Below the pieces are notes generated by a model that was not told the origin of the DNA, made no database searches, and worked only from the letters and a program-made list of their open reading frames with translations. From the NCBI RefSeq assembly GCF_023100945.1, contig NZ_CP064689.1, forward strand, positions 4,756,001 to 4,820,000: a stretch of DNA of 64,000 nucleotides. The letters run 5' to 3'. Positions 51,211 through 60,379 of this stretch are shown here, in pieces (positions within the stretch are counted from its first letter, which is position 1; the number at the start of each line of letters is the position of its first letter). Origin of the DNA: Bradyrhizobium sp. 200 (lineage in GTDB: Bacteria > Pseudomonadota > Alphaproteobacteria > Rhizobiales > Xanthobacteraceae). Position numbers and translations under genes: made by a program.

Positions 51211-51364
51211 GATGCCGCCTCAAAGAAACTCTGTCGCTGCCACGTTTCGCCGCTTCCCGTCCGTAATCGGCGTTCTCCACGGCCGAATATCTTCAACATG
51301 TAGTACTGTGTAGTCATGAAGGGTCGATTCACACGCCCAACGTTCGGTGGAGCAGTCAGCCGTC

Positions 51365-53893
51365 ATGAACGAACTCGGCCCTTCCGCCGACACGATGCCT
51401 CCGCACGTATCTTACGACTGGCTGCAGCGACGGATCGTCATCGCAGCGGTGGCGTTCGCGCTTGCCCTTCTCGCCGTGCAAGCCTTCCAAGCCTGGCAAG
51501 GCTATCGCACGGCTAGGGCCGAGGCAGAACGGCGCGCGACCAACCTGGTCTACATTCTGAGCGCCCACATGCGGGAGGCGGTGGCTGCACTCGATGCCTC
51601 GCTGGTGCAAATCGCAGCCGCAAGCCAACGGCTGGGCGGTCCGTCCGGAAATACCGATGACTGGAATGCCGTGCTGATGGGTGCGATCGCCGGCCTGCCA
51701 AACACGGGATCGCTCAGCGTCACCGATAGCGAAGGTGTTATCCGGCATTCGACGGTCACAAACATCCTGGGTCAGTCGCGGCAGGGTCTCTATTTGTTTC
51801 AGACTCTGCGACGCCAGGCGAATGCCGGCATGGTGGCGGACCGACCCTTCAAGGGCGTGTCCGGCGAGATGCTGATTCCACTCGGGCGACGGCTGGAAGG
51901 CCCGGCTGACACGTTCCAGGGCGTCGCGGTCGCCACCTTGCGCTTGCAGCGCTTACGCGAATTCTACCGCTCGATCGACGTCGGTCCCAGCGGGCTGATC
52001 CGCATCCTGCATCCTGACGGGCAGGTTCTGTTCCGCGAGCCATCGTCACGCGATCCGATCGGCGAACCCGCGCTGGAAGACCCGGTCTACCTGGCTTACC
52101 GGGCCGGCAAGGCCAATGGCCTGCTGGACGAGGAGTCCGGCCCCAATGGGCGTCCGCTCATCACCGCCTTCCATGCCCTGCCGTCGCCCGGGATCGTGCT
52201 TGCGGTTTCTCTCGATCGCAGGGCGGCGTCCGCGGAATGGCGCAACAACCTCGCCGTCGATGGCGGCCTCCTCGCCGCGGAGCTTCTGGTTCTCGCGGTC
52301 GCGACCGCGACGATCCTGCAGTTGTTGCGAGCGCGCCACGCCGCGACATTGCGGCTGGCAAGCCGCGAGCGGCAGTTGCTGCTGGCGGAGTCGATCGCCC
52401 ACATGGGCGCCGTCACCTTCGACGTCGCGGCCGAAATGGTCCGGCCGTCGCCGCAGATCGCCGCCATTTTCGGCTGGCCGGAGCCCGTCGAGGAATTTCC
52501 GCTGCAGGCGTTCCTTAGCGCCGTGCACGAAGCGGACCGGCAGCCCCTCGGCCAAACCATCAGGCGCTGTGCCGAAGGTGGCGGGCCCTATCGCCAGGAA
52601 TTTCGCATCACGCGCCCCGATGGCGGCGTGCGCATCATCTGGTCCGAAGGATTCCGGGACGACGGCACGCCGACCGCCGCGGCCGGCGTCGTCGCCATCT
52701 GCCAGGACGTGACCGATCGGCGGATGGCGGAACGCCAACTGGCCCAGGCGCTGAAGATGGAAGGGGTCGGCCAGCTCACCGGCGGCGTCGCCCATGACTT
52801 CAACAACCTCCTGACCGTGATCATCGGCAATCTGGACATGCTGGCCGAATGGCCCGGCGCGGACGCGCGCGCCCGCGAAACGGCCGAGATCGCGCTACGG
52901 GCTGCCGATCGCGGCGCCGATCTCGTGCGCAGCCTGCTGGCCTTCTCGCGAAAGCAGCCGCTGCAACCGCGCCTGGTCAATCTGAACGAGATCGTCCTGG
53001 AAACCGACCATCTGCTGCGGCGAACCCTCGGAGAACAGGTCGAGCTGGAAACCAGCCCGGAACGCAAGATCTGGCTGACCATGGTCGATCCTGCGCAATT
53101 GCAGGCCGCCCTGGTCAACCTGGCAGTGAACGCACGCGATGCCATGACGCAAGGCGGCAAGCTGACGATCGAGACCGGCAACGTCGTGCTGGACGAGCAC
53201 TACGCGCGGCAGAACGCGGATGCCAGGCCCGGCGCCTATGTCCTGCTGGCCGTCAGCGATACCGGCTCCGGCATTCCTGCCGCCATGCTGGACCGCGTGT
53301 TCGAACCGTTCTTTACGACCAAGGAAACCGGCAAAGGAACCGGGCTCGGACTCAGCATGGTCTACGGCTTCATCAAGCAGTCGAATGGTCACATCAAGAT
53401 CTACAGCGAAGTCGGGCACGGCACGACCGTGAAGCTCTATCTGCCGCGAAGCGAGGCCACCGCGCTCGTGGAGGCTCCTGCGACGGCGGTCGAACGGGAC
53501 TCGCCAGGCAACGAGACCGTGCTGGTGGTCGAGGACGACGCGATGGTGCGCGATTTCGTCGTGCAGCAGTTGCGGCAGCTTGGTTACCGGACGCGACTGG
53601 CCGAGAATGGCAGGGAAGCCCTGGCGGCTCTGGACGATGGCGCCAGGATCGACCTGCTGCTGACCGACGTGATTTTGTCGGGTGCGCTGACGGGCAAGCA
53701 GGTCGCCGACACAGCGCAGCGACAGCGACCGGACCTCAAGGTGCTGTTCATGTCCGGCTATACCGAGAATGCGATCGTGCATCACGGCCGGCTTGACCCG
53801 GGCGTCCTGTTGCTATCGAAGCCGTTCCGCGCCACCGACCTCGCACGGATGGTTCGCAGGGCGATTGCAGGCAACCAGCCCAGTGACGCCTGA
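51365..53893 (+). CDS. Hybrid sensor histidine kinase with receiver domain
   Basis: An 842-residue protein. An N-terminal transmembrane helix (about 25-45) and a second at about 300-320 flank a periplasmic sensor region (about 50-295, Cache-like). A PAS region follows (about 345-450), then HisKA with His477 in [17 protein letters not shown], HATPase boxes ([34 protein letters not shown]), and a C-terminal receiver with Asp768 ([10 protein letters not shown]). No response regulator is adjacent, so it may signal through a separate partner. GTG at 51347 is an alternative start. Confidence 0.92.
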
Positions 53894-53914
53894 GGCTGTT
53901 GCCGCAGCGCCGCC

Positions 53915-55309
53915 TCAGCCGAAGAACGTCTCGAACAGCAGCTTCACATTCAGCGCGACGATCACGCCGGCGACGATCCAGGCCACAGCCGCCACGGTGC
54001 GAGAGATCGCGAATTTGCCCATCTTGCGCCGGTCGGAAACGAACTTCACCAGCGGGATCACCGCGAACGGCAATTGCATCGACAGCACGACCTGGCTGAA
54101 CACCAAAAGCTGGCCGGTGCCGCGCTCGCCATAAAGCGCGGTGACGATCACGACCGGAACGATGGCGATGCCGCGGGTGAGCAGCCGCCGCGCCCAGCTC
54201 GGCAGGCGCAGATGCAGAAAGCCTTCCATCACGATCTGGCCGGCCAGCGTCGCGGTCACCGTCGAATTGAGGCCGGAGGCGAGCAGCGCCACCGCGAACA
54301 GCGTGGAAGCGATGCCGAGGCCAAGCAGGGGCGACAGCAGTTCAAATGCCTGGCCGATCTCGGCCACTTCCGTGCGGCCGGTCGCATGGAAGGTCGCAGC
54401 CGCGACGATCAGGATCGCGGCGTTGATGAACAGCGCCAGCATCAGCGCGATGGTCGAATCCGTCGTCGCCCATTTGATCGCCTCGCGGCGGCCCTTGTCG
54501 TTCCGTTCATAGGCGCGGGTCTGCACGATCGAGGAGTGCAGATAGAGATTATGCGGCATCACGGTGGCGCCGATGATGCCGATGGCGATGTAGAGCATCT
54601 CGGGATTGGTGACGATCTCGGTCGAGGGCATGAAGCCCTTCAGGACGGCGGCGACCGGCGGGGCGGCAGCCACGATCTGGATCGCAAAGCAGACCGCGAT
54701 CACGATCAGGAGCGAGATGACGAAGGCTTCGAGGAAGCGGAAGCCCTTGTTCATCAACAGCAGCAGCAGGAAAGCGTCGAGCGCGGTGATCAGCGCGCCG
54801 GCGATCAGCGGAATGCCGAACAGCAGTTTCAGCGCAATCGCCGTGCCGATCACTTCCGCCAGGTCGCAGGCGATGATCGCGGCTTCGCAGGCCACCCAGA
54901 GCAGGAAATTCACGGGCCGCGAAAAGCTGGCGCGGCAGGCCTGCGCTAGATCGCGATCGGTGACGATGCCGAGCCGCGCAGCGAGCGCCTGCAACAGGAT
55001 CGCCATCAGGTTCGACAGCAGGATGACCGAGAGCAGCGTGTAGCCAAACTTCGAGCCGCCCGCGAGGTCGGTGGCCCAGTTGCCGGGGTCCATGTAGCCG
55101 ACCGAGACCAGATAGCCCGGACCGAGGAAGGCCAGCAGCCGACGCGACCAATGCCCGCCAAAGGGCACCGAGATGGTCGAATTGACCTCAGGCAGGCTGC
55201 GCTGGGCACCAACGGCAGCATCAGCGCGCCAGCCGGCAGCGGTCGTGTCGGTCATCGTCGAGCTCTTGACCAGAGTTTCGGTGCCCAAACCGGGCGTTCG
55301 TGCGTCCAT
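53915..55309 (-). CDS. mntH: Nramp-family manganese transporter MntH
   Basis: A 464-residue membrane protein with eleven helices. The DPGN motif of helix 1 is [20 protein letters not shown] and the helix 6 motif is [14 protein letters not shown]; both carry metal-binding residues. It imports Mn2+ (and Fe2+) with protons. Starts at 55309 ([10 protein letters not shown]) and, less likely, 55255 were considered. It is divergent from the PspA operon, across a region with Mur-like hexamers. Confidence 0.93.
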
Positions 55310-55330
55310 CTTCAAAAGGGATATCTTTAT

Positions 55331-55353
55331 TGCAACTCATTTGCAACTGCATC
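55331..55353. promoter_or_regulatory. Three TGCAAC/TGCATC hexamers, Mur/Fur-like site of mntH
   Basis: TGCAAC at 55331-55336, TGCAAC at 55342-55347 and TGCATC at 55348-55353 are direct repeats starting 22 bases before the mntH ATG. Direct hexamer sites of this kind are described for Bradyrhizobium Mur (Fur), the manganese-responsive repressor of mntH. Binding is inferred from that similarity. Confidence 0.5.
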
Positions 55354-55387
55354 TAGCGATCACAAAAATGATATCGACGATCCTCTG

Positions 55388-55410
55388 TAAAGTACCAATG
55401 AAGTGCTTTA
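55388..55410. promoter_or_regulatory. 23-bp inverted repeat before the TnpB-PspA gene
   Basis: TAAAGTAC (55388-55395) and GTGCTTTA (55403-55410) pair with one mismatch around CAATGAA, ending 10 bases before the ATG at 55421. The position fits an operator or a 5' mRNA hairpin of the PspA operon. No known regulator motif matches. Autoregulation by the N-terminal TnpB-like domain is a speculation worth testing. Confidence 0.5.
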
Positions 55411-55420
55411 TGGTGTAGCT

Positions 55421-56551
55421 ATGGTCAAGCTATCCACCGAAATGCCTACGGCGGCTCTGCGATACGCCCTCGTCCCCGATCAGGACGCCATTGCTGCCTT
55501 CGAGGCGACGTTTGCCGCCTACGACCGGATGATGGAGATCCTTGCCGAGGTCGCGCCTGTCGGCGCCAACCTCGTCGCCCTTCACGCCCAGGCATACGAA
55601 AGAATTCGCACCGAGACCGGCCTGCCGGCTCGCCTCGTCACACTCGGCCTGCGCGACCGCGCCAGTTACGCCGCGGGCGCGACGCTGCGCAGGATTCCCC
55701 TCGACGACAAATTGTTTGCGATCAAGGGACCGACTTCACTGACGATTAGCACTGTCCGCGGACGCATCCTGGTGCCGTTCGAAGTGCCGGGCTACCTGCC
55801 CGGCTGGGAAAGTCCCTTCCCGGCTCACTTGGTCTCGGACGGCCGCGGCTACGAAATCCACTTCGCCGTCAAATCGAAATCATCACAACCGGAGGAGCAG
55901 ACCATGGTTCACGAGGGTATCCTTGCACGTATGGGTAGACTTCTTGCCGCGATTGCCAGTGAGACCATCGACAATGCCGAGAACAGCAACAAGGTCGCGC
56001 TGGTCAAACAGGCGATCCGCGAAATCGACGCCGGCGCCGACGAAGCACGCCATGCGCTCGGCAAGTCGCGCGCCGAGGAATTCCGCCTGAAGCGCCGGCG
56101 CGAGGAATTGGACGCCGAAATTTCCGGACTGACGGAAAAAATTCGTCTTGCGGTTGCAGAAAACCGCGAAGATCTCGCGCGCGCCGGCGTCGCACGGCAA
56201 ATTGATCTGGAGTCCCAGGGAACGGCGCTCGAACGCGCGATGGATTTCATCGAACTCGAAATCGACGAGCAGACCAAGGCCTTACAGGCGATGCTTGGCG
56301 CACGGCGTGAAGCGGAAACCCGTCTTGCCGATCTCGAAGCGAGCCTTGCACAGCATTCGCCGCAGGAAACCGGACGCGGGGTTGGCGCGACTAAAACAGT
56401 AAGCCCTGATCGGGCCATGGCGGCGATCGCGCGCGTGACCGGCGTGCCGGCGTCCGGCGTGCCCGGTGACAAGGAACTCGACGAACTCGACCGGTTGCAC
56501 CGCGAAAAGGAAATCGCGGCCCGCCTTGAAAGGATCAAGTCGCAGCAATGA
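55421..56551 (+). CDS. PspA protein with a TnpB-like N-terminal domain
   Basis: A 376-residue protein. Residues 162-376 are PspA/IM30-like, mostly coiled coil (IASETIDNAENSNKVALVKQ, then AREIDAGADEARHALGKSRA), the type that binds membranes under stress. Residues 1-161 are not PspA. They align by eye with the N-terminal half of IS605-type TnpB, without RuvC: ANLVALHAQAYERIRTETGL parallels the REC helix, and PLDDKLFAIKGPTSLTISTV and GRILVPFEVPGY parallel the WED strands. The frame is open throughout. A Shine-Dalgarno GGAGGAG before Met162 could give a second, plain PspA product. The stop overlaps the next gene as ATGA. Confidence 0.75.
   Translation: MVKLSTEMPTAALRYALVPDQDAIAAFEATFAAYDRMMEILAEVAPVGANLVALHAQAYERIRTETGLPARLVTLGLRDRASYAAGATLRRIPLDDKLFAIKGPTSLTISTVRGRILVPFEVPGYLPGWESPFPAHLVSDGRGYEIHFAVKSKSSQPEEQTMVHEGILARMGRLLAAIASETIDNAENSNKVALVKQAIREIDAGADEARHALGKSRAEEFRLKRRREELDAEISGLTEKIRLAVAENREDLARAGVARQIDLESQGTALERAMDFIELEIDEQTKALQAMLGARREAETRLADLEASLAQHSPQETGRGVGATKTVSPDRAMAAIARVTGVPASGVPGDKELDELDRLHREKEIAARLERIKSQQ
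55891..55906 (+). promoter_or_regulatory. Internal ribosome binding site and ATG at the domain junction
   Basis: GGAGGAG (55891-55897) lies 6 bases before ATG (55904-55906), codon 162 of the fusion gene, where the PspA part begins (MVHEGILARMG). The spacing is ideal for initiation. It would yield a 215-residue PspA of normal length, independent of the TnpB-like half. Confidence 0.55.
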
Positions 56552-57207
56552 GTGCCCTGACCGACATCCTGCTCGCGCCGGACGTACGGCCGTTCGCGGT
56601 GGCTGCGGCGATCATGGTGGCGCTCGGTGGCATCGAATTGCTGGCAACGCTGGTCGGCTTCTCGATCAGCGAACTGGTCGGCAAGGAAGTCACTGTCGAG
56701 GCCGACCACGGCAACGGGCTCGGCGGCCTGTTCCTGTGGATCAATGCGGGTCGCCTGCCGCTGTTGATCCTGATCATCCTCGCGCTCGGCGTATTCTCGA
56801 TCGCGGGATTCTTCCTGCAGGGGCTCGCGCACGGTGTGGGGCTCTCGATCCCCGCCTCGATCGCGGCTCTCGCGGCTATCGCCTGCAGTATTCCGGCCAT
56901 CCGCGTTACCAGCCGCGGCATCGCCCGCATCATCCCGCGCGACGAGACCTACGTGGTGGATGAGGCCGATTTCATCGGTCATGTCGCCGAAGTTTCGATC
57001 GGGCCGCTCGACCAGGGGTTGCCCGGCCGCGTCCGTCTCAAGGATGTCTTCGGCAACTGGCACTCTCTCGTCGCACGCGCCAGTCCCGAGTCGACCCCGC
57101 TCCCGGTCGGCGCCAGCGTGCTGCTGGTCGACCGCGACGCCAAGAGTTTCATTGCCATCTCCGCACCCGCCGACCTCATTGCGCAACAACGTTCAGACAG
57201 GGCTTAA
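56548..57207 (+). CDS. YqiJ-like OB-fold/NfeD-type membrane protein
   Basis: A 219-residue protein. The N-terminal half has helices (FAVAAAIMVALGGIELLATL, LPLLILIILALGVFSIAGFF, then IAALAAIACSIPAIRVTSRG). The C-terminal half is an OB-fold domain (about 140-205, with GHVAEVSIGPLDQGLPGRVR). This is the YqiJ/DUF1449 layout, an NfeD-type partner of flotillins. It overlaps the PspA gene by four bases, so it is cotranscribed and coupled. Confidence 0.85.
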   Translation: MSALTDILLAPDVRPFAVAAAIMVALGGIELLATLVGFSISELVGKEVTVEADHGNGLGGLFLWINAGRLPLLILIILALGVFSIAGFFLQGLAHGVGLSIPASIAALAAIACSIPAIRVTSRGIARIIPRDETYVVDEADFIGHVAEVSIGPLDQGLPGRVRLKDVFGNWHSLVARASPESTPLPVGASVLLVDRDAKSFIAISAPADLIAQQRSDRA

Positions 57208-57209
57208 AC

Positions 57210-58973
57210 ATGTGGGAACTTGCAATACCCGTTAGTATTGGCGTCATTGTCGTTCTTGTTATCGGTCTCCTGCTTGCCAAACTCTACCGCCGCTCGACGC
57301 GTGACGAAGCCTATGTCCGCACCGGCCTCGGCGGCCAGAAGGTCGTCCTCGACGGCGGCTCGATTGTCCTTCCGGTTTTCCATTCGACGGCCGCAGTCAA
57401 CCTGAAAACGCTGCGGCTCGAGGTCGCCCGTGGCGGCCCGGACTCGCTGATCACCAAGGATCGCATGCGCGTCGACATCGGCGCCGAATTCTATCTCCGC
57501 GTCAAACCGGACAGCTCGTCGATCGCGCTCGCCGCGCAGACGCTGGGCAGCCGCACCAACAATGCCGGCGAACTGCGCGAACTGATCGAGGCAAAATTCG
57601 TCGACGGTCTTCGTTCGGTCGCCGCCACCATGAACCTCGAGGAGCTGCAGGAGCAGCGCGCCACCTTCGTCAAATCAGTGCAGGAAGCGGTCGGCGCCGA
57701 CATCCAGAACAACGGCCTCGAGCTCGAGTCGGTGTCGCTGACGCGGCTCGACCAAAGCGACATCAAGCACTTCAACCCGAGCAATTTCTTCGACGCCCAC
57801 GGCCTGACGACGCTGACCAAGATCACAAGGGAACGCGAACAGGAACGCAACCAGATCGTCCGCACCACCGAGGTGAACATCGCGCAGCAGGACCTCGTCG
57901 CCCGCCAGACCACGCTGACGATCGAGGCCACCAAGCGCGAGGCCGAACTGGCGCAGCAGCGAGATATCGCCAACAAGACCGCCGCGATGCGCGCGCAAAC
58001 CGCGCAGGTCGAGCAGACGGCGGTGCAGAACGAGGCTGAATACCGCATCCAGCAGGAACTGGCGGTCGCCAACAAACAGACCGAAGCCAATCAGTTGCGC
58101 GACACGCGAAGGATCGAAGCCGATCTCGCGGTGAAGCGCCGCAATACCGAAATGGAACGCGACCTGCAGATCGTCGCCCAGGAAAGCGCGATCGCGGTCG
58201 CGACCAAGAGCAAGGAGCAATCGGAGGCGCAGACCGTCGCCGAAACGGCGCGTGCGCTGGCGATTGCGGCCGAGGAAAAGGTCACCACCGCCAAAGCGGT
58301 CGAAATCGCCGAACGCGACAAGATCATCAACGTGATCGCGGCGCGCAAGGCCGCCGAAACCGAGGCGATGCCGATCACCGTGATGGCGGAAGCCGAGAAC
58401 CAGGCCGCAACCAACAAGGCGGAAGCCATCACCATGCTGGCCAAGGCCGATGCCGATGCGGCAATCACCCGCGCGACCGGCGTCAAATCGCTTGGCCAGG
58501 CCGAAGCCGAGGTGGCGGCGCTGAAGGCGGAAGCCCGCAACAAGCTCTCGCAGGAGATGGTCGACTACGATCTCACGCTGGCGCGCATCAACATCATCCC
58601 GAATGCGCTGGCCGAAGCGGTCAAGCCGATCGAGAAGATTTCCGACATCCGTATCTTCGACACCGGCGGCATGCTCGGCCGCGGTGGCAATGGCGCGATG
58701 AATGGCCATGGCAACGGCCTCGGACTTGGCGACGGCCTCGCTGCGCAACTACTGTCGGTCTCGGCCTTCAAGCCGATCATCGACAAGATCCTCGCCGAAG
58801 GCGGTTTCGCCGCCGGTCCGGACGCGCTGACAACCCTGACCAACGCGCTGGCTGCGCAGCAACTGGCAGGTCCCGCCGAACCGCCCGCCACAGAAGAAGA
58901 TGATGATGAGCCGGCGACGCCGCCCGCGACGATCTCGGGAACGGGCAAGGCAACGCTCGGACCGAAATCGTAG
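57210..58973 (+). CDS. Flotillin-like protein YqiK
   Basis: A 587-residue protein. One N-terminal helix (IPVSIGVIVVLVIGLLLAKL) is followed by a SPFH domain (about 35-200, with KVVLDGGSIVLPVFHSTAAV) and a long Ala/Glu-rich coiled coil (about 225-475, with QARETAETARALAIAAEEKV-type repeats). A Gly-rich linker and acidic tail follow. YqiK flotillins scaffold membrane microdomains. It starts 2 bases after the YqiJ-like gene and ends the operon. Confidence 0.93.
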   Translation: MWELAIPVSIGVIVVLVIGLLLAKLYRRSTRDEAYVRTGLGGQKVVLDGGSIVLPVFHSTAAVNLKTLRLEVARGGPDSLITKDRMRVDIGAEFYLRVKPDSSSIALAAQTLGSRTNNAGELRELIEAKFVDGLRSVAATMNLEELQEQRATFVKSVQEAVGADIQNNGLELESVSLTRLDQSDIKHFNPSNFFDAHGLTTLTKITREREQERNQIVRTTEVNIAQQDLVARQTTLTIEATKREAELAQQRDIANKTAAMRAQTAQVEQTAVQNEAEYRIQQELAVANKQTEANQLRDTRRIEADLAVKRRNTEMERDLQIVAQESAIAVATKSKEQSEAQTVAETARALAIAAEEKVTTAKAVEIAERDKIINVIAARKAAETEAMPITVMAEAENQAATNKAEAITMLAKADADAAITRATGVKSLGQAEAEVAALKAEARNKLSQEMVDYDLTLARINIIPNALAEAVKPIEKISDIRIFDTGGMLGRGGNGAMNGHGNGLGLGDGLAAQLLSVSAFKPIIDKILAEGGFAAGPDALTTLTNALAAQQLAGPAEPPATEEDDDEPATPPATISGTGKATLGPKS

Positions 58974-59014
58974 CCGAAGCGGCGGACCGATCCGCCGTTC
59001 AACCGAAACCAAAG

Positions 59015-59046
59015 AGGCCCGCAGCCATCGCGCCGCGGGCCTTTTT
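59015..59046 (+). terminator. Intrinsic terminator after the flotillin gene
   Basis: AGGCCCGC (59015-59022) and GCGGGCCT (59035-59042) form an 8-base stem with a 12-base loop, followed by TTTTTC. A small perfect hairpin, GGCGGA-CCGA-TCCGCC, lies just before at 58981-58996. The 59047-59134 stretch is the promoter region of the MFS gene. Confidence 0.85.
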
Positions 59047-59134
59047 CTTGTGCAAGCCTTGTCGGGAAACGGGTGGGTTCGATCGTCCTCAGGCCGGACA
59101 ATGAGGACAGATCGAGTCTTGAGGGAATTTCGCC

Positions 59135-60379
59135 ATGTCCGCCGCCGACACGCCTCGCCTGCCCGCGACCTTCAACCGCCTGGCCTGGTCCAATCTCGCC
59201 GCCCAATCGGCCGAGCAGATTGCACTGGCCGCTGCCCCGATCATCGCCGTGCTGCTGCTTGGCGTCGGCGAAGGCCAGACCGGGCTGTTGCAGACCGCGC
59301 TGACGCTGCCCTTCATCCTGTTCGCGATTCCCGCCGGCCTGCTCGCCGACCGCATCTCGCGGCGCTGGGTAATGGCAGGCTCCGAGGCGCTGCGCGCCGC
59401 GGCGCTGGCCGGAATCCTGCTGCTGATCTGGCTCGGGCAAATGACGCTGCCGCTGCTTTCGCTGCTCGGCTTCATCGCGGTGTGCGGAACCGTGGCCTAC
59501 AGCGTCGCCGCGCCCGCTCTGGTGCCATCGCTGGTGACATCGGAACAATTACCTGCAGCGAATGCGCGGATCGAACTGGCGCGCACGGTCGCATTCGCCA
59601 GCGGCCCGGCGCTCGGCGGTGTGCTGGTTGGATGGTTGGGCGCCGCGCCTGCCTTCGGATTTGCTGTGGCGTTGTCCGTGATCGCCGTCGTGCTGCTGTC
59701 GGGCATCTATGAACCGCCGCGCGCGCCTGCGCCGCGCCGCCATCCGCTGCAGGAGATCAAGGAGGGCGCCGCCTTCGTGCTGCATCATCCGCTGCTGCGG
59801 CCGGTGTTTATCACGCAGTTCATTTTCAACACAGCCTCGTTCCTGCTGCTTGCCGTGTTCGTGCCCTATGCCGTGCGCCATCTCGGCCTGTCGGCTACCG
59901 GCGTCGGCGTGACGCTTGGGATGTATGGCGTCGGCATGGTCGCCGGCGCGCTCGCGGCGACGCGGGTGATGAAGCGGCTGGCCTTCGGAACCGTGATCGG
60001 GCTCGGGCCCGTCACCGGCTTCGTCGCCGCCATGGTGATGGCGCTGACGACCATCGTGCCGACGCCCTGGCTCGCGGGCCTGAGCTTCTTCCTGCTCGGC
60101 GCCGGTCCGATCCTGTGGGTGATCTCGACCACGACGCTGCGGCAATCGGTGACGCCGCCGTCGCTGCTCGGACGCGTCTCCGCCATCAACATCATGAGCT
60201 ACGGCGCCCGCCCGCTCGGCTCCGCGTTAGGTGCCATCGTCGGCGGCTTCTACAGCGCAGAAGCCTGTCTTTATCTGGCGGCGGCGATCTTCGGCGCACA
60301 GGCGCTGGTGATCTGGATTTCGCCCGCGGTCTCGCTGGCCCGGCAGCCGGATATGGTGGGTGAAGCGGCGCGGTGTTAG
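59135..60379 (+). CDS. MFS transporter (MFS_3 type)
   Basis: A 414-residue twelve-helix protein. Motif A-like IPAGLLADRISRRWVMAGSE is after helix 2, and the second half has LGMYGVGMVAGALAATRVM. The layout is that of MFS_3/EntS-like exporters. The substrate is unknown. It follows the flotillin terminator on the same strand as a separate unit; a hairpin GTTAGCG-N8-CGCTAAC overlaps its stop codon (60375-60396). Confidence 0.85.
   Translation: MSAADTPRLPATFNRLAWSNLAAQSAEQIALAAAPIIAVLLLGVGEGQTGLLQTALTLPFILFAIPAGLLADRISRRWVMAGSEALRAAALAGILLLIWLGQMTLPLLSLLGFIAVCGTVAYSVAAPALVPSLVTSEQLPAANARIELARTVAFASGPALGGVLVGWLGAAPAFGFAVALSVIAVVLLSGIYEPPRAPAPRRHPLQEIKEGAAFVLHHPLLRPVFITQFIFNTASFLLLAVFVPYAVRHLGLSATGVGVTLGMYGVGMVAGALAATRVMKRLAFGTVIGLGPVTGFVAAMVMALTTIVPTPWLAGLSFFLLGAGPILWVISTTTLRQSVTPPSLLGRVSAINIMSYGARPLGSALGAIVGGFYSAEACLYLAAAIFGAQALVIWISPAVSLARQPDMVGEAARC

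Follow-up and report, generated by a model that had tools for sequence, protein, structure and literature searches.

The fusion gene and its distribution

A PspA protein is encoded in Bradyrhizobium sp. 200 as the second part of a fusion, the first part of which resembles the front half of TnpB (IS200/IS605, IS607; NF040570). The gene lies in a 64,000-nucleotide stretch of contig NZ_CP064689.1, called the window below. It is preceded by an inverted repeat that is a candidate operator, and is followed by genes for a YqiJ-like protein and a flotillin. The features are as follows.

55385..55414 (+): presumed promoter, inferred from conservation, with -35-like CTGTAA (CTTG in most relatives) and -10-like TATGGT flanking the dyad
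55389..55409 (+): 21-bp dyad, candidate operator AAAGTAC-CAATGAA-GTGCTTT, 11 bp before the start codon
55421..56551 (+): full-length gene, 376 amino acids, TnpB-derived WED/REC domain plus PspA; ATG start picked by conservation among relatives
55421..55903 (+): TnpB-derived pre-RuvC domain, residues 1-161 (hhalign E 1.2e-13; dN/dS 0.127)
55631..55633 (+): codon of Arg71 (GLPAR), which co-varies with operator base 3
55891..55906 (+): GGAGGAG and in-frame ATG (55904), candidate second start giving PspA alone
55904..56551 (+): PspA/IM30 domain (ESCRT-III superfamily; PF04012 E 5.8e-14)
56548..57207 (+): YqiJ-like membrane protein (PF21001 E 2.9e-18, PF07290 E 2.6e-9), with a 4-base overlap with the fusion stop
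57210..58973 (+): flotillin, YqiK-like (PF15975 E 3.5e-25, PF01145 E 6.9e-18)

A single uninterrupted forward-strand frame, starting at 55403 (GTG) or 55421 (ATG), runs to 56551. As an earlier note on this DNA, made from the letters alone, had claimed, there is no stop from 55421 to 56551 and PspA follows from 55904; the whole protein scores 50.5 bits against PF04012 (cut-off 33.9) and thus belongs to PspA_IM30. The note was also right that the catalytic RuvC part is missing, since PspA begins where RuvC-I should, and the D-E-D catalytic domain was not found in the fusion protein. Three features go beyond that note: the in-frame ATG with GGAGGAG at the junction, the dyad at 55389-55409, and the constant continuation into yqiJ and flotillin.

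The first domain was matched at E 0.001 in 23 of the 60 relatives searched (own genome counted in). Twenty of these are full-length fusions within the genus, so that the architecture, which the earlier note had proposed to seek in other Bradyrhizobium genomes, is indeed found there. The other three are a copy outside the genus (G058), a copy that ends at a contig end (G033) and a possible remnant of the first domain, 34 residues in length (L135 in G003). In wider samples, again with the own genome included, the counts of matching genomes were 25 out of 397 for the order, 7 out of 149 for the family and 5 out of 337 for the class. Named species genomes gave 228 places encoding a relative, the best 80 of the 228 being mostly from Bradyrhizobium and Rhizobium, and a protein search gave 456 proteins, with PF04012 in 116 of 120 among the matches listed. 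The fusion is present in several families of Alphaproteobacteria. A homologue search with the basal member in L107 returned 1108 candidates, none of which was scored. A listed weak match, L275 in G882, turned out not to be a family member. The N-domain of a fusion in a record named Frankia sp. RB7 (L199) is 58% identical to that of the window, and the record name looks wrong.

The frame is open in all 128 fusion loci (some genomes were reached by two routes), continuing in frame for at least 190 amino acids past the first domain in every one. Among nine Bradyrhizobium sequences (36 pairs), the first domain has a median dN/dS of 0.127, and PspA one of 0.098. The fusion is one conserved gene and no local accident, and its first domain is under purifying selection; the sequencing artefact through frameshift that the earlier note had wished to see checked is thereby set aside. 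One genome carries a decayed copy, in which most of PspA and part of the first domain have been lost (L045 and L046 in G410). The order of fusion, YqiJ and flotillin was found in 14 of 14 chosen neighbourhoods; beyond these three, no family was seen in most neighbourhoods by crude gene calling, those occurring in two or three loci not being named here. A second, ordinary PspA gene is present in the same genome (G000:C1:1422137-1422817), so that two PspA types coexist and the fusion is an extra PspA, not the sole one.

At the domain junction, an in-frame ATG is found in 44 of 44 distinct loci. Its Shine-Dalgarno duplex energies range from -5.6 to -12.2 kcal/mol (mean -10.1), as compared with a mean of -3.1 for 247 other in-frame ATGs and -3.5 for the presumed long start (n=43, a few starts mis-picked). 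Synonymous shuffling gave this internal ribosome-binding site a median fraction of 0.19 (highest 0.91), which does not prove selection; the shuffling is not decisive, because the junction peptide is rich in Glu and Glu codons resemble the site. A second product that lacks the domain and consists of PspA alone is probably made from the internal start. Tubulation depends on helix alpha-0, which is located in the lumen of PspA rods (PMC12358876), so that a short product with a free alpha-0 would make sense. As the frame is predicted, alpha-0 is free only if the internal ATG is used.

Relationship of the first domain to TnpB

Residues 1-161 alone gave no Pfam or PHROG match and no NCBIfam family above its cut-off, and a sequence search of the domain against PDB chains gave no meaningful match (best E 0.31 and 0.29). 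In single scans of 30 family members, 4 showed a weak match to HTH_OrfB_IS605 (best E 0.011), 1 or 2 matched each of three further Pfam families, 1 matched the NCBIfam transposase N-terminal domain TIGR01765 (E 0.049), and 7, 5 and 4 matched three unrelated families. Such weak HTH_OrfB_IS605 and TIGR01765 matches of single members carry little weight alone.

Profile comparison is more informative. TnpB frames were collected by scanning viral contigs for a TnpB motif, a selection that favours one helix. The first pattern scan gave 10 loci, 8 with TnpB frames and two with chance matches. A profile of 30 fusion N-domains matches those 8 frames with E between 5e-20 and 3e-8. When the three scans are pooled, the profile matches 31 of the 43 frames (E 0.001 at most), and a RuvC-I motif lies within the frame in 27 of the 31. 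The alignments cover most of the domain despite the motif-based selection. By hhalign, the 30 fusions and the 8 TnpBs share 145 columns at E 1.2e-13, fusion positions 13-157 being aligned with TnpB positions 5-159, next to which RuvC-I follows. All 8 TnpBs of this set belong to the NCBIfam family guided_TnpB. By these alignments, residues 1-161 share homology with the pre-RuvC half (WED and REC) of guided TnpBs, as the earlier note had supposed. As for the type of TnpB, the homology stands and the assignment is refined: the nearest TnpBs found are of a GLSAQ-type clade, not of the ISDra2 type. A further 8 TnpB frames, taken from genomes, are of the HTH or ISDra2-like type; the fusion profile weakly matches 7 of them (best E 0.005, in a small set), and hhalign against that type gives E 0.01 and probability 4, so that the link to ISDra2 runs through the GLSAQ-type clade. 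In a tree of the 30 representative N-domains and the 8 TnpBs, the fusions form one clade (100/100), as expected of one capture, although a wider TnpB sample could change this.

Unlike TnpB, the fusion has neither RuvC nor the zinc/TNB part, is joined to PspA and is less basic. In ISDra2 TnpB, WED comprises residues 1-12 and 117-176 and REC residues 13-116, and the duplex of the transposon-associated motif (TAM) lies in the cleft between them, in contact with K76, F77, Q80, Y52, S56, T123 and N124, while the omega-RNA scaffold is held by WED and RuvC (PMC10097598). Since the TAM duplex sits between WED and REC, the part kept by the fusions is the TAM reader.

The dyad and residue 71

AAAGYAC-N7-GTGCTTT or a symmetric variant precedes the fusion genes, and for 107 of the 111 distinct segments an ATG lies 10-12 bases from it. 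Because the upstream frame gives different readings in different clades, the dyad is conserved as DNA and not as peptide. Co-variation was scored in 42 distinct sequences (43 were picked, and L085, whose dyad is unclear, was left out). In the dyad arms 94.2% of cells are paired, against 35-50% in slid controls, and both sides have changed in 14 cells (shuffled mean 3.4). None of 500 shuffles equalled the real arms in co-variation score, paired percentage or count of double changes. Two further measures are less striking: 44 of the 500 shuffles were as high in how many pairs show double changes, and 21 in how many pair types occur. Together with its flanks, as TAAAGYACN7GTGCTTTA, the pattern is found at a single place in each of 16 fusion-bearing genomes of the genus, always just before the fusion, and in none of 14 genus genomes without it. 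The own genome is among the 16, its single copy lying before its own fusion gene. In the other four full-length carriers of the genus (G001, G019, G023 and G024) the arms are present and the left flanking T is missing. A conserved, co-varying dyad is thus tied to the fusion. One match to the pattern outside the genus (L138 in G042), which lies after a protease-like gene in an AT-rich genome, was rejected by eye as chance or a terminator-like palindrome. L035 has an additional perfect inverted repeat, TTGAGAC-N5-GTCTCAA, upstream of its operator.

Inheritance of the dyad from TnpB is not supported. The best inverted repeats before 30 TnpB-type frames share neither sequence nor spacing, although in 6 of the 30 upstream regions the repeat has a shuffle fraction no higher than 0.05 (60 plain shuffles per region; some starts guessed); unlike the fusions, the TnpBs show no dyad of common form before their genes. 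By eye, several TnpBs of the GLSAQ-type clade share a -10-like, TATA-like box a few bases before the tnpB ATG (L087, L093, L255, L257, L262, L264, L266 and L236), which suggests leaderless tnpB mRNAs.

Before the fusions, the left arm is preceded by CTTG and the right arm followed by TA. This arrangement suggests a dyad situated in a promoter spacer and a leaderless mRNA; transcription would then start near the ATG. In B. japonicum, 320 mapped starts lie 0-10 nucleotides before start codons, 192 of them exactly at the start codon (PMC4842269).

Residue 71 of the fusion co-varies with base 3 of the operator: G accompanies Arg, and C or A accompanies Gln. The first 128 loci comprise 122 with Arg at this residue and 6 with Gln, and the GTG arm is missing in all six Gln loci and in one Arg locus, L184. 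Among 137 loci, G is found at base 3 in 224 of 248 arms of Arg loci (22 A, 2 T) and in 0 of 26 arms of Gln loci (17 C, 9 A; L085 included). Arg loci carry G in both arms in 102 cases, in one arm in 20 and in neither in 2; L035, the one scored without G besides L184, has a mis-picked dyad, and its true arms keep GTG. Seven newly found Gln loci have arms starting with ATA, TTA, GTA, ATC, CTC or GTC, never with GTG. Two Arg-bearing outliers fetched later, L276 (GLPAR) and L283 (GLQAR), have GTGCTTT in both arms, one of the two being a solo domain that lacks PspA. A third half-site is present in L276, where the dyad is also nearer to the ATG. GTG arms had been expected by reasoning for Arg-bearing basal relatives (the first being protein P0224), an expectation that was not recorded beforehand. 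In 39 representatives, column 71 ranks first among all columns of both domains, PspA included, followed by K102, with the qualification that shared ancestry inflates all column scores. To place the label Arg on the tree, 3 changes are needed, and the starred branches force at least 2, be they gains or losses. All 8 TnpBs have Gln at this position, which says nothing on the ancestral state because the scan pattern required Gln. The earlier note had suggested nucleic-acid-based control, and the co-variation lends this specific support; the ligand is likely the gene's own promoter DNA and not a guide RNA.

The domain also occurs without PspA. In G1258 (L285, on G1258:C21) a separate frame of 185 residues encodes it; a perfect dyad precedes this frame, and yqiJ and then flotillin follow. 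PspA queries found no match in the 12 kb around it, and two PspA genes are present elsewhere in that genome. Proteins P0224, P0226 and P0228 resemble this solo form at the protein level.

A proposed autorepressor and its alternatives

These observations are probably best explained by a guide-free, TnpB-derived autorepressor tethered to the membrane-stress sensor PspA. An ancestral Alphaproteobacterium would have captured the front half of a TnpB (WED and REC) upstream of a pspA-yqiJ-flotillin operon, with loss of RuvC, and the captured domain would now serve as a guide-independent, sequence-specific DNA-binding domain. Oligomerization of PspA, or the solo domain itself, may pair two copies, one per half-site of the dyad, and PspA oligomers would present several reading heads. 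Binding to the dyad in its own promoter would repress the operon; upon membrane damage PspA would be drawn to the membrane, the DNA released and the operon expressed. From the internal ribosome-binding site PspA without the domain would be made, whose free N-terminal helix could bind the membrane. Direct binding, repression in preference to activation, the stress switch and the two isoforms are what we infer from sequence. The position of the dyad between promoter boxes suggests occlusion, hence an autorepressor as the most likely form; alternatively the protein may activate, or may recruit the promoter to the membrane.

Several observations weigh against this explanation. The -10 and -35 boxes are weak in the window, where a strict sigma-70 scan found no promoter, and the conserved purine-rich loop of the dyad is not expected of a plain two-fold DNA site. 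The Arg locus L184 has A at base 3 of both arms, the 20 one-armed Arg loci come in addition to it, and L085, counted as a Gln locus, has no clear dyad. Only about 2 to 4 switches of residue 71 and base 3 lie on the tree, so that shared ancestry carries much of the association. The register to ISDra2 is uncertain, residue 71 standing opposite F77 by hhalign (probability 61%) and opposite Q80 by the motif; both residues contact the TAM (PMC10097598). The domain is also less basic, with a net charge of -7 to +6 in 48 fusion rows (47 at +2 or less) as compared with +1 to +14 in 31 TnpB-type frames, whose matched stretches vary in length. Finally, the gene calling behind the statement that no other regulator recurs in the neighbourhood was crude, in GC-rich DNA.

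The dyad could instead be an RNA hairpin in a 5' leader, bound by the OB-fold WED/REC domain to control translation of its own mRNA. The highly paired arms with compensatory changes, the near-fixed distance to the start codon, the purine-rich loop and the RNA binding of the donor family would all suit a hairpin. C-A and A-C mismatches, however, are tolerated as well as G-U: in the 128 loci AAAGCAC is combined with GTACTTT in 7, with GTGACTT in 4 and with GTGCCTT in 3, and AAAGTAC with GTGCTTT in 13. Moreover, the sequences on either side of the dyad resemble promoter boxes, residue 71 aligns with the TnpB segment that reads duplex DNA, and the domain has lost positive charge. A hairpin is accordingly regarded as unlikely, if still worth considering.

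It is similarly improbable that the domain is a protein-interaction or assembly-gating module of PspA and that an unlinked regulator reads the operator. Such a module would fit the conserved internal start and the loss of basic charge, but residue 71 tracks the operator and, within the limits of the gene calling, no regulator was seen to recur nearby. The solo domain keeps the same dyad and the same downstream genes without PspA, and this persistence of domain and operator is more in keeping with a regulator than with an assembly factor for PspA.

An RNA-guided repressor like TldR, with a guide RNA made elsewhere, would agree with the TnpB ancestry and has a precedent in TldR itself, yet it is very doubtful, since RuvC, which holds much of the guide scaffold (PMC10097598), is gone and no guide is required where a fixed dyad is matched by a protein residue; no Rfam match above the gathering score was found in 53000-60000, although many omega-RNAs may not be in Rfam. 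That the gene is decaying or mis-read and only PspA is made, from the internal ATG, is hardly credible: the stretch resembling an internal ribosome-binding site, the decayed copy in G410 and the possible remnant in G003 would fit, but the first domain is under purifying selection and all 128 frames are open.

The autorepressor proposed here has partial parallels in known systems. TldR is likewise a TnpB relative turned transcription regulator, as the fusion would be, and it keeps an inactive RuvC. In the fusion a nuclease-dead RuvC of this kind was not found, the domain being absent. TldRs, as domesticated TnpB-type regulators, retain RNA guidance (PMC13418256), whereas the target of the fusion seems to be read by protein alone.

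PspA of E. coli inhibits a separate enhancer-binding protein, PspF, and its recruitment to the membrane lifts the repression. It is a stress-coupled negative regulator of its own operon, as the fusion would be, whereas in the fusion the DNA-reading part would be built into PspA. The E. coli genes form the operon pspF-pspABCDE (PMC12358876). PspF, PspB and PspC were not found beside the fusion in the window, where the flanking genes compared with Pfam are mntH and those for a histidine kinase, YqiJ and flotillin, the rest of the genome not having been searched. The divergent mntH gene (Nramp; 53915-55315, reverse strand; PF01566 E 3.8e-136) is preceded by TTGCAACTCATTTGCAACTGC (55330-55350), which we take to resemble a manganese-regulator (Mur) box, and a hybrid histidine kinase with PAS, dCache-like sensor and receiver domains is encoded at 51347-53893 on the forward strand.

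PspA in company with YqiJ and flotillin is shared with the CesT/Tir-PspA, band-7/flotillin and YqiJ operons described in a survey (PMC11237479), in which CesT/Tir proteins neighbour PspA, and less than 2% of PspAs show tandem repeats or are fused to other domains such as NlpC/P60 and PspAA. The word transposase does not occur in the main text of that survey. The present fusion was not reported in the literature searched, which was the open-access subset.

On balance, it seems likely that the TAM-reading half of a TnpB has become a stand-alone, guide-free DNA-binding domain wired to PspA, and that its specificity has been altered, in at least two lineages, through a single residue of the TAM-reading segment; the membrane-damage sensor and the switch of its own operon would thereby be combined in one protein. 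TnpB is held to be the ancestor of Cas12 (PMC10097598). If the proposal is true, a TAM-reader module can recognize DNA on its own, and the family would represent guide-free TnpB-derived transcription-factor domains, a class not found in the literature searched. It would further provide a natural series of TAM-reader specificities together with their cognate sites, and a PspA circuit that holds the stress sensor and the DNA-binding domain in a single protein.
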